Source: Candidatus Eremiobacteraceae bacterium
GTDB taxonomy: Bacteria > Vulcanimicrobiota > Vulcanimicrobiia > Eremiobacterales > Eremiobacteraceae
Assembly: GCA_036511855.1 (NCBI GenBank)
Contig: DATCBN010000049.1
Span: 1 to 43,586 of the forward strand
Direction: 5' to 3'
DNA: 43,586 bases
The notes below the pieces were generated by a model, which made no database searches, was not told the origin of the DNA, and saw only the letters and a program-made list of their open reading frames with translations. A program made the position numbers and the translations under genes. Below are positions 18,649 through 42,307 of the stretch, piece by piece; positions within the stretch are counted from its first letter, which is position 1, and each line of letters starts with the position of its first letter.

Positions 18649-18752
18649 GGGCAAGCGCTGCTTGCCCTGGCTCCCTGTAGGAGGGCGAGCTACCCGTACT
18701 AAGGTGAGCAACGCTCACCCATTTTTTGGGCAAGCGATGCTTGCCCTAGTAC
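18649..18752. repeat. Intergenic palindromic repeat cluster (inverse copy of the 41233 repeat)
   Basis: Two A-type hairpins are present: GGGCAAGC-GCT-GCTTGCCC at 18649-18667 and GGGCAAGC-GAT-GCTTGCCC at 18728-18746. A B-type hairpin, GGTGAGC-AAC-GCTCACC, lies at 18703-18719. The stretch 18703-18752 is the reverse complement of the unit at 41235 onward, including the flanking TAGTAC, with only the short spacer differing (AAAAAAT against AAAGAT). It fills the mutS2-tyrS gap. Confidence 0.85.
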
Positions 18753-39122: not shown

Positions 39123-41225
39123 ATGAATCACTATTCGTCAATGTCGATGGAGCAACTGGCTATCGGATTCGCGCTCGTGTGCGGGCTTCTCGCCATCGGC
39201 TACGGCGCGTACCTCATCTCGTGGATTCTGCGCAAGTCCGACGGCAATCCCAAGATGCGCGAAATCGCGGCCGCCATCCAAGAAGGTGCGATGGCGTACA
39301 TGAAGCGCCAATATAGCACCATCGCCGTCGTAGCCGTCGTGCTCGCCATCGTGCTGGCCGTCGTCTTCAAAGGTTGGGAAGCGTCGGTCGGCTTTCTCGT
39401 CGGCGCGATCCTGTCCGGCCTGACTGGATTCATCGGCATGTTCGTCGCCGTGCGCGCGAACGTCCGCACGGCCGAAGCAGCGAAAGGCGGGCTGGGCGCG
39501 GCGTTCGACGTCGCGTTCAAGGGCGGCGCCATCACGGGTCTGCTTGTCGTCGGCCTCGGCATCATCGCGGTGTCCGGCTATTTCGCGATCATGCATTCCG
39601 TCTACGGCGACGACTTGCCCTCGGCTTTGAACGCCATGGTCGGTCTAGGCTTCGGTTGTTCGCTGATCTCCGTGTTCGCGCGTCTCGGCGGCGGCATCTA
39701 CACCAAGGGGGCCGACGTCGGCGCCGATCTCGTCGGCAAAGTGGAAGCCGGCATACCCGAAGACGATCCGCGCAACCCAGCGGTCATCGCGGACAACGTG
39801 GGCGACAACGTCGGCGATTGCGCCGGTATGGCGGCCGACTTATTCGAGACCTATTGCGTCACCACCATCGCCACCATGCTGCTCGGCGCTCTCGTATTCA
39901 AAGGCAACGCTGAACTCCAGCTGATCTCCACTTTGTTTCCGCTGGTCCTCGGTGGGGCCTCGATAATCACGTCGATCATCGGCACCGCATTCGTCAAGGT
40001 CAAGAACAAGAACATCATGGGCGCAATGTATGTCGGCTTGGCCATCGCGGCCGTGCTTTCGGCCATCGCCTTTTACTTCATCACCGGCCACATCATGCAG
40101 AATGCGGCTCAGGTCGACGAGCGCTTCACCCCGCTGAATCTCTGGTACTGTTCGCTCGTCGGTCTTGTGATCACCGGCCTCATGGTGATCATCACCGAAT
40201 ACTTCACCGGCACTCAATTCCCGCCGGTGCAAGCGATCGCGCGGGCTTCCACGACCGGGCATGCCACGAACATCATCACCGGCCTTGCAGTCTCCATGAA
40301 GGCGACCACGCTGCCGGTGATCGTGATCGTACTCGGCATTTTGGTGTCGTACGGTCTCGCCGGCTTGTATGGCGTCGCCATCGCTGTGATGTCCATGCTT
40401 TCGATGGCGGGCGTCATCGTCGCGCTCGACTCGTACGGGCCGATCACCGACAATGCCGGCGGCATCGCGGAAATGGCGAAACTTGGTCCGGAGATCCGCG
40501 GCATCACCGATCCGCTCGATGCTGTCGGGAACACGACCAAAGCCGTCACCAAAGGCTATGCCATCGGTTCCGCTGCGCTCGCCGCCATCGTCTTGTTCGC
40601 ATCGTTCCAACAAGAATTGGCGGGCATCGGATCCCAAACGCTCGTCTTTGCGCTCGACAAACCGTACGTTCTTGCCGGGTTGCTGCTCGGCGGCGCGCTG
40701 CCGTATATATTCGCTGCGCTGTGCATGGAAGCGGTCGGTCAAGCAGGCAGCGCGGTGGTCGAGGAAGTCCGCCGTCAGTTCCGCGAGATCAAAGGCATCA
40801 TGGATGGGACCGGCAAGCCTGAATACGGCCGTTGCGTGGACATCGTGACCTCATCCGCGCTTCGCCAGATGCTCGTGCCCGCGCTCATCCCGGTGCTCAC
40901 GCCGGTCTTCATCGTCTTGCTCGGCGTGGTCGGCATCATCAGCAGCGAAAACGCGGCGCTCATGCTCGGCGGCGTTCTCGTCGGATCGATCGTGACCGGC
41001 ATCTTCGTCGCCATCTCAATGACTTCTGGCGGCGGCGCGTGGGATAATGCGAAGAAGTACATCGAAGACGGCAACTACGGGGGCAAGAAAAGCCCCGCTC
41101 ACCAAGCCGCGGTCACCGGCGATACCGTCGGCGATCCGTACAAAGACACTGCCGGCCCTGCGATCAACCCGATGATCAAGGTGCTCAACATCGTGTCGCT
41201 GCTCCTGGTCCCGTTCTTGCACTAA
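39123..41225 (+). CDS. hppA: Membrane H+-translocating pyrophosphatase, K+-independent type
   Basis: The 700-residue, about 16-TM pump couples pyrophosphate hydrolysis to ion export. Catalytic motifs: [20 protein letters not shown], then [20 protein letters not shown] and [11 protein letters not shown], and the later [10 protein letters not shown] and [17 protein letters not shown]. The segment [18 protein letters not shown] has Lys where K+-dependent enzymes have Ala, so this should be the K+-independent H+ pump. It saves energy from biosynthetic pyrophosphate, useful to a cell living on trace gases. It stands alone, followed by tandem hairpin repeats. Confidence 0.96.
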
Positions 41226-41232
41226 TTGAATC

Positions 41233-41362
41233 GTACTAGGGCAAGCATCGCTTGCCCAAAGATGGGTGAGCGTTGCTCACCCTAGTACGACGGCAAGCAT
41301 CGCTTGCCCAAAGATGGGTGAGCGTTGCTCACCCTAGTACGAGGGCAAGCATCGCTTGCCCA
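41233..41362 (+). repeat. Tandem 52-bp palindromic repeat unit (2.4 copies)
   Basis: Unit plan: TAGTAC, A hairpin (GGGCAAGC-ATC-GCTTGCCC), AAAGAT, B hairpin (GGGTGAGC-GTT-GCTCACCC). A hairpins begin at 41239, 41291 and 41343, exactly 52 bases apart; B hairpins lie at 41264-41282 and 41316-41334. The second A arm starts with C instead of G. It fills most of the hppA-M48 gap. A reverse-orientation copy lies at 18703-18752. Confidence 0.92.
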
Positions 41363-41409
41363 ATGTCCCACAGAAACGCCGCCCCGACCCCTTACGTTAT
41401 AGAACTGCT

Positions 41410-42255
41410 ATGAACGCTCAGACCCCCACCGATCCCCAAACTCTTTCACGGCGTTGCCTGCTCTGCGGCGCCGGCGCGTTCGCCGCGCTGGCGGCGCTGC
41501 CGGCCGGCGCGCTGCCCGCGGCGGCAGACGCCCACGATCAAGAACGCCAAATAGGACAGCAAGTCTACAATCAACAGAAGAGCCAAGGGCTTATCGTGGA
41601 CTCATCGCCGTATTATCCGGTCTTGCGCAAGATCGGCGATAACATAAGCCGAGCTGCGGCGCCGCATTGGTATACCATGAATTTCATCGTGGTGAAAGGG
41701 ACCGACGCCAACGCTTTTTCGGTGCCCGGCGGCAATATCTACGTGACCCAAGCACTGCTGCACGACAGCGAAAACGAAGACGAGCTCGCGAACGTGCTCG
41801 GCCACGAAACGGGCCATCTCGTGCTCGGCCACGTCATGGATCGACTGCACAAGGCACAGACGGCCAATGTCGTCGGCACCATCCTCGGCATCTTCATCCG
41901 CAATCAGACCACGGCGACCATGGTGAATCTTCTCGGCAACTACGCGTTTCTCAACTTCTCGCGCGCGCAAGAGTACCAAGCCGACCATGAAGGCGTGATC
42001 CTCGCCGGCAAAGCCAACTACAATCCTTACGGCATGGAGTGGTTTTTTCAGAAACTCCAAAAGTTGTACGGCAACGCGGGGTTCGAACAATATGTGCAGG
42101 ACCACCCGTCCACCGACGACCGCATCACTCGAATCCAACAATTCTTCAATAGCGATCCGGCGCAGTTCGGCAAGTGGCAAAACACGATGACGTCCAAGAG
42201 CGGATTGGCCACGTCCAATGGATCGGATGCGAGAGTGATCATCACGCCGTCCTGA
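41410..42255 (+). CDS. Secreted M48-family metalloprotease
   Basis: From the ATG at 41410 the protein has 281 residues. A Tat-like signal (SRRCLLCGAGAFAALAALPA) precedes the mature part. The M48 zinc site is His132-Glu-x-x-His136 (VLGHETGHLVLGH), and the third ligand is Glu188 in AQEYQADHEGV. ANAFSVPGGNIYVTQALL and the C-terminal DHPSTDDRITRIQQF are family hallmarks (BepA/YfgC and Oma1-like group). It likely degrades or folds extracytoplasmic proteins. There is no TPR domain, unlike BepA. The frame upstream to 41356 lies in repeat sequence. Confidence 0.92.
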   Translation: MNAQTPTDPQTLSRRCLLCGAGAFAALAALPAGALPAAADAHDQERQIGQQVYNQQKSQGLIVDSSPYYPVLRKIGDNISRAAAPHWYTMNFIVVKGTDANAFSVPGGNIYVTQALLHDSENEDELANVLGHETGHLVLGHVMDRLHKAQTANVVGTILGIFIRNQTTATMVNLLGNYAFLNFSRAQEYQADHEGVILAGKANYNPYGMEWFFQKLQKLYGNAGFEQYVQDHPSTDDRITRIQQFFNSDPAQFGKWQNTMTSKSGLATSNGSDARVIITPS

Positions 42256-42272: not shown

Positions 42273-42307
42273 CGAAGAGAGGGCAAGCATGGCTTGCCCT
42301 CTCTTCG
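42273..42307. terminator. Perfect 16-bp inverted repeat between convergent genes, probable bidirectional terminator
   Basis: CGAAGAGAGGGCAAGC and its exact complement flank the loop ATG. The inner part is an A hairpin of the dispersed repeat family. It lies 17 bases after the M48 stop and 11 before the rplL stop, so it could end both transcripts, though no long T tract follows. Confidence 0.65.

Follow-up and report, generated by a model that had tools for sequence, protein, structure and literature searches.

A tandem REPIN array downstream of hppA and its probable dispersal by a resident RAYT in a member of the Eremiobacterota

The short array of hairpins that follows hppA, which encodes an H+-translocating pyrophosphatase, in a draft genome of the Eremiobacteraceae is almost certainly a BIME, namely a small cluster of tandem REPINs, i.e. 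non-autonomous mobile elements composed of two REPs in inverted head-to-head orientation, whose family has been dispersed by the genome's own RAYT (TnpA-REP), an HUH/Y1 single-strand nuclease. The array is situated in a window of 43,586 nucleotides, by which we denote the whole stretch of DNA analyzed and which corresponds to contig 49 of a 3.07-Mb draft genome comprising 112 contigs.

Anatomy of the array downstream of hppA

Direct reading together with a repeat search resolved positions 41233-41361 into five REP units, namely three REP-A alternating with two inverted REP-B, and the same array can be parsed as two tandem REPINs followed by one REP (Table 1). In each unit, a head of 6 nt (GTACTA or GTACGA) precedes a hairpin with an 8-bp stem and a 3-nt loop. 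REP-A, which lies on the + strand in the array, reads GTAC[TG]A + GGGCAAGC-ATC-GCTTGCCC, while inverted REP-B reads GGGTGAGC-GTT-GCTCACCC + TAGTAC. The heads of all five units are GTAC, a self-complementary tetranucleotide that is common to adjoining units, as an inverted REP-B ends in TAGTAC and the next REP-A starts with GTAC. Because adjoining units overlap in GTAC, the period is fixed at 52 bp. The three REP-A units found by the repeat search start at 41233, 41285 and 41337, exactly 52 and 52 bp apart, and share 93-96% identity, and the full 52-mer is present in two copies of 96% identity. An earlier note, made from the sequence alone, had described two palindromes alternating with an exact 52-bp period; this description is borne out by both the reading and the repeat search, and the 6-nt head on each palindrome is now added to it.

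The first unit of the array begins 8 nt past the hppA stop codon. At up to three mismatches, the window holds six A and three B palindromes, compared with 0.26 and 0.29 expected from shuffling, and no shuffle reaches these counts. A single REP unit, with its perfect 8-bp stem and 3-nt loop, is capable of forming a hairpin (DNA fold z -6.0), the A-B doublet folds into one long hairpin in both DNA and RNA folding, and the array region as a whole folds far more stably than shuffles (DNA z -10.2, RNA z -11.2). Elsewhere in the window, a headless A palindrome at 18649-18667 lies beside the second REPIN of the family.

As a separate observation, the perfect palindrome CGAAGAGAGGGCAAGC-ATG-GCTTGCCCTCTCTTCG at 42273-42307 has arms of 16 bp and is located between the M48 peptidase gene and its convergent neighbour. 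This palindrome includes the REP-A stem without a GTA head; it may represent a converted REP or, alternatively, act as a bidirectional terminator.

Table 1. Positions of the REP units, REPINs and genes described in the text; positions refer to the window unless a contig (C) or locus (L) is named.
Feature	Position	Strand	Description
Second REPIN of the A/B family in the window	18696-18752		REP-B forward, GTACTA + AGGTGAGC-AAC-GCTCACCC; REP-A inverted, GGGCAAGC-GAT-GCTTGCCC + TAGTAC
hppA, H+-translocating pyrophosphatase	39123-41225	+	PF03030, E 8e-262
REPIN 1, head-to-head A-B doublet	41233-41288		one long hairpin possible; DNA -20.7 kcal/mol, z -7.7
REP-A copy 1	41233-41257	+	head GTACTA 41233-41238; hairpin GGGCAAGC-ATC-GCTTGCCC 41239-41257
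Spacer AAAGAT inside REPIN 1	41258-41263		6 bp; direct reading
REP-B copy 1, inverted	41264-41288	-	hairpin GGGTGAGC-GTT-GCTCACCC 41264-41282 + TAGTAC (head GTACTA on the - strand)
REPIN 2	41285-41340		tandem copy of REPIN 1, offset 52 bp
REP-A copy 2	41285-41309	+	head GTACGA, GTAC in common with REP-B copy 1; hairpin CGGCAAGC-ATC-GCTTGCCC 41291-41309, one foot mismatch, C for G
REP-B copy 2, inverted	41316-41340	-	hairpin 41316-41334 + TAGTAC
REP-A copy 3, unpaired terminal REP	41337-41361	+	head GTACGA (GTAC overlapped); hairpin 41343-41361
M48 peptidase gene, downstream of the array	41410-42255	+	PF01435, E 8e-28
Second RAYT copy	C4:14964-15466 (L017:1426-1812 and onward)	+	70% identical to the C109 gene; frameshift near the C-terminus
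Intact RAYT, 177 aa	C109:10505-11035	-	PDHVHML and YYITQNPVRA motifs

Distribution and pairing of REP-A and REP-B in the genome

The family extends far beyond the window. At up to two mismatches, the genome contains 499 matches to stem A and 179 to stem B, as opposed to 9 and 0 for the reversed-pattern controls, and the copies are spread across most of the listed contigs. Position and anatomy were studied in a sample of 291 kb, consisting of the window and 13 further stretches (about 248 kb), in which a simple codon-usage caller assigned 89% of the sequence as coding and 10.7% as intergenic. Of 91 sampled copies, 88 are intergenic (binomial p about 1e-81, uncorrected for clustering), so that high copy number is combined with an almost exclusively intergenic position, as is characteristic of REPs. 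The earlier note had proposed such a genome-wide count as a check and had stated that its reading would fail if the motifs showed no intergenic excess and no copies beyond the window; the counts ran the opposite way, with several hundred copies that are mostly intergenic. Within the sample, the REP clusters favour the 3' ends of genes: among the 35 clusters with called neighbours, 18 lie between co-directional, 15 between convergent and 2 between divergent genes, the corresponding numbers for all gaps being 143, 23 and 22.

Copies in the sample were oriented according to which side of the palindrome carries a GTANNA head. A head of the consensus GTA[CG][TG]A, present on one side only, orients 87 of the 91 copies and is GTAC in 53, GTAG in 24, GTAT in 7 and another tetranucleotide in 3 of them (GTGG in one). 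The loop is ATC in 64 of the 87 oriented copies. Regarding the stems, GGGCAAGC/GCTTGCCC was found 57 times, GGGTGAGC/GCTCACCC 11 times, GGGCGAGC/GCTCGCCC twice and GGGTTAGC/GCTAACCC once, and the changes between them are compensatory (CA/TG, TG/CA, CG/CG, TT/AA).

A distinctive property of the family is the way in which its units pair. Exact matches in the whole genome form 79 A-B, 9 A-A and no B-B head-to-head doublets with spacers of 1-12 nt, while about 44, 27 and 18, respectively, would be expected under random pairing; the 9 A-A doublets represent 18 of 20 strand matches, of which the remaining two are not head-to-head. Over-represented inverted doublets with short spacers, their fold into a single hairpin and the tandem cluster after hppA are the hallmarks of REPINs and BIMEs. 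The excess of A-B doublets may arise because the doublet is copied as a unit, by selection against perfect long palindromes, which has been suggested for REP heterodimers (PMC3733652), or by both.

Other tandem arrays were also encountered. Nine REP-A units in the same direction follow each other with an exact 42-bp period at L024:4416-4770, an array larger than the one after hppA, in which two main spacer sequences are intermixed. At L029:33-191, five direct repeats of REP-A with a 35-bp period are located at a contig edge, which suggests that the repeats break the assembly. Moreover, a second palindrome family, GGCCGACC-TTTAT-GGTCGGCC with a GTGG/GTAG-like head, is represented near REP-A copies of the same genome by about 8 clear examples within the 291 kb sampled (L019:6807, L020:17271, L020:17346, L020:18258, L023:9279, L027:3722, L027:4997 and L030:10393). 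In its shape it resembles the GGCGGACC REP that flanks the RAYT of the congener G001.

The RAYT genes and the proposed mechanism

Searching the genome with PF01797 (Y1_Tnp) yielded two genes. The product of the intact gene on C109 scored 95.5 bits against NF047646, the model of REP-associated tyrosine transposases (cut-off 80), and 28.8 bits against the IS200 model, which is below the cut-off of 55. Its HUH (PDHVHML) and catalytic tyrosine (Y..xNPxR) motifs are conserved, as is typical of the RAYT class. The frameshift of the second copy on C4 may reflect either genuine decay or an error in the assembly. REPs of the A/B family border each of the two genes on either side and point inward, which is the REPtron arrangement. 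The C109 gene is flanked by two forward REPs with GTAGGA heads on one side and by two inverted, partly decayed REPs on the other, and the C4 gene by three forward REPs (GTACTA, GTAGGA, GTACTA) and, on the opposite side, two inverted REPs with GTACTA heads. The search for a TnpA-REP gene that the earlier note had called for was thus successful, and the note's reading of the array as a REP/BIME-like element moved by a RAYT gains support from the copy counts, the intergenic position, the REP-flanked RAYT genes and the strong difference in copy number between congeneric species, the movement itself being deduced from these.

A single RAYT sequence retrieved no match from the PDB with phmmer. When 14 RAYTs of the phylum were combined into a profile, E. 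coli TnpArep (4er8, E 4e-17) emerged as the best solved relative, and in the alignment with 4er8 the motif W-Q-x4-[DE]-[HR]-x2-R corresponds to W94, Q95, E100, H101 and R104, residues that have been discussed in terms of contacts to the GTAG guide (PMC6006769).

Adopting single-strand recognition, cleavage and copying from biochemical work on E. coli TnpA-REP and from studies of Pseudomonas REPINs (PMC3116915, PMC8049555), we infer the following course of events. The locus would become single-stranded, e.g. at a replication fork, whereupon each REP would fold into a hairpin. The RAYT would then read the unpaired 5' head (GTAC or GTAG) at the foot of the hairpin, and its tyrosine would cut and rejoin single strands, by which the A-B doublet would be copied into other intergenic sites. 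Finally, the 52-bp array would have formed locally, by duplication of the REPIN via the common GTAC. As for hppA expression, the hairpins at this site probably act as a stable mRNA 3' end or are neutral.

Related genomes and the hppA site

At up to one mismatch, stem A occurs 450 times in the genome under study, 65 and 78 times in two congeners (G001 and G002) and, across 145 further members of the phylum, 0-2 times per genome, which is what chance would give; stem B occurs 141 times here and is missing from both congeners. Near the scanned sites in G002, 36 of 45 stem-A copies carry a GTAGTA head, although the scan itself required a nearby GTANNA head, and none of the G002 stem-A copies near these sites has a head-to-head partner. 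Despite their 65-78 A copies, no cognate RAYT of the A/B family was detected in the congeners, and the only RAYT found in G002 belongs to a different REP (TGAAGGGGCCGA...). Since the G002 copies are mostly GTAGTA-headed and unpaired and stem B is missing from both congeners, the GTAC head, REP-B and the A-B REPIN are traits of the window's lineage, the one that possesses the cognate RAYT.

The hppA-M48 junction lacks REP-A and REP-B in both congeners. Instead, the hppA-M48 spacers of G001 (C43) and G002 (C23), loci L097 and L098, harbour another palindrome family (TGAAGGGGCCGA...): in G002, the palindrome flanking the genome's own RAYT occurs here as an inverted pair, and in G001 a related palindrome is present. 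The same site has therefore received different families. The difference between the species at this position shows gain or loss, whatever the mechanism.

Nine to ten additional genomes from the phylum likewise contain RAYTs flanked by their own, different, inverted REPs. In a more distant genome of the phylum, G124 (L103, L123, L130), a dozen RAYT-like matches were noticed, some of which are flanked by GTAGGA-headed REPs with a 6-bp stem. A match from the Nannocystaceae (L092), which emerged from the collection scan with one copy, was discounted as probably due to chance.

Alternative explanations

Three other origins of the array were weighed against dispersal by the RAYT. It is unlikely that the RAYT is incidental, as a domesticated or passenger gene, and that the repeats spread by recombination or gene conversion and replication slippage instead of transposition. 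The tandem arrays of fixed period (52 bp, 42 bp in nine units, 35 bp) do point to local slippage, one RAYT copy of the pair has a frameshift, and the congeners maintain their A copies without a detected cognate RAYT. However, the intergenic dispersal across most listed contigs exceeds what slippage gives, the A-B doublet is amplified only in the lineage with the cognate RAYT, and a RAYT and flanking REPs co-occur in nearly every family member examined.

Quite improbable is the view that the hairpins are immobile RNA-level elements, either intrinsic terminators or stabilizers of the hppA mRNA 3' end, that are kept for their function. The immediate proximity of the array to the hppA stop codon and its very stable RNA fold would suit such a role, as would the location of 15 of the 35 sampled REP clusters between convergent genes compared with 2 between divergent ones, yet a preference for 3' ends is equally expected from insertion combined with purifying selection. 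Furthermore, an RNA-level function is opposed by the several hundred near-identical units, which also flank a transposase, and by the absence of REP-A and REP-B from the hppA 3' end of either congener. No intrinsic terminator, in the sense of a GC-rich stem with a T tract, was detected at 41150-41450 on either strand, and the Rfam search returned sub-threshold matches with no family above the cut-off, both of which count against this view.

An origin of the elements as MITE-like remains left by an IS200/IS605 insertion sequence is hardly credible: although RAYTs belong to the same HUH-Y1 superfamily and the genes match PF01797, the IS200 model stayed below its cut-off while the RAYT model passed, and the genes are few and bordered by inward REPs, with no full IS copies with such ends seen.

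REP heads and RAYT residues

Among RAYTs with GT(A/G)G heads, 11 of 12 have kept Q95, H/R101 and R104, while all five RAYTs with other heads are changed at 95, 101 or 104: those of the genome under study (G000), with GTAC heads, carry H or K at position 95, G004a and G011a, with GGAG heads, carry H at 104, and the G002 RAYT, with a GAAG head, carries N at 101. The association yields a Fisher p of 0.001 per protein and 0.011 per lineage in a small, post hoc table compiled by hand with heads read by eye. The RAYT genes of G000 also adjoin GTAG-headed REPs. A change of Q95 as the sole cause of non-GTAG heads was considered and rejected in view of the third RAYT of G009, which has Q95M yet GTAG heads; the Q95 rule is therefore not absolute.

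G004 (L038/L048) and G011 (L037/L125) each possess two RAYTs with near-identical REP stems (CGGTCGAG) and with GTAG versus GGAG heads. In both genomes, the GGAG-headed RAYTs feature H, not R, at the equivalent of E. coli R104, while the R104 paralogues keep GTAG.

We tentatively suggest, as a possibility somewhat short of even, that the REP head and its RAYT reader co-evolve in Eremiobacterota, such that changes of residues 95, 101 or 104 accompany head switches, and that here near-obligate A-B heterodoublets were amplified along with the switch to GTAC. The suggestive correlation from these protein and repeat sequences is to be taken as a lead rather than a result.

Comparison with known systems and implications

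REP, BIME, REPIN and RAYT are of a known kind with an ordinary mechanism; new are the host phylum, within the literature searched, as well as the predominant GTAC head and the near-strict A-B heterotypy. The GTAG-tagged REPs and REPINs of Pseudomonas (PMC3116915, PMC3733652) likewise combine a short stem with two extra bases after the tetranucleotide (GTAG-GA-GGGCAAGC... here, GW in the Pseudomonas GTAG-1 family; PMC3733652), and also display inverted pairing across short spacers, intergenic copies in the several hundreds, tandem REPIN clusters and a cognate RAYT flanked by REPs. In contrast to Pseudomonas REPINs, the present elements mostly bear a GTAC head and show two stem types, near-obligate A-B pairing and a 3-nt loop, and they reside in another phylum; the likeness need not reflect descent at the sequence level. 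The D/R at RAYT positions 100/101 agrees with RAYT subclass 2.5 as described in PMC6006769.

In E. coli BIME-2 (Y and Z2 REPs, RAYT yafM; PMC2817692), two REP types also alternate in opposite orientation and in tandem, and the RAYT is flanked by both. The E. coli REPs, however, exceed the present ones in length and have bulged stems and GTAG heads, whereas here the stems are short and free of mismatches and adjoining units overlap in the palindromic GTAC. The A-B heterotypy resembles both this Y/Z arrangement and the heterodimers of PMC3733652. Within the same family, other Eremiobacterota pairs correspond in that each RAYT is flanked by its own inward repeats of head plus hairpin, but their stems and heads are RAYT-specific (GTAG, GTGG, GGAG, GAAG). 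In the literature, REPs are defined by a GT(A/G)G head. The five window units, all with GTAC, deviate from this definition, which speaks against the REP assignment, but the family as a whole does include such heads, GTAG being present in 24 of the 87 oriented copies here and in 36 of 45 copies of the same stem in G002. Our literature search found no paper combining Eremiobacterota with "repetitive extragenic palindromic", and the one item found with both Eremiobact- and RAYT was a skin-genome catalogue.

Taken together, the REP/RAYT system is extended to the Eremiobacterota, in which several RAYT-specific REP families exist within one bacterial family. If the correlation between head and reader holds true, genomes with two RAYTs of nearly the same stem and GTAG versus GGAG heads would constitute natural pairs for dissecting the recognition of the guide tetranucleotide, a matter relevant to the whole IS200/IS605-RAYT group. 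In addition, the A/B heterotypy provides a clean case for asking what keeps inverted REP dimers from being perfect long palindromes.
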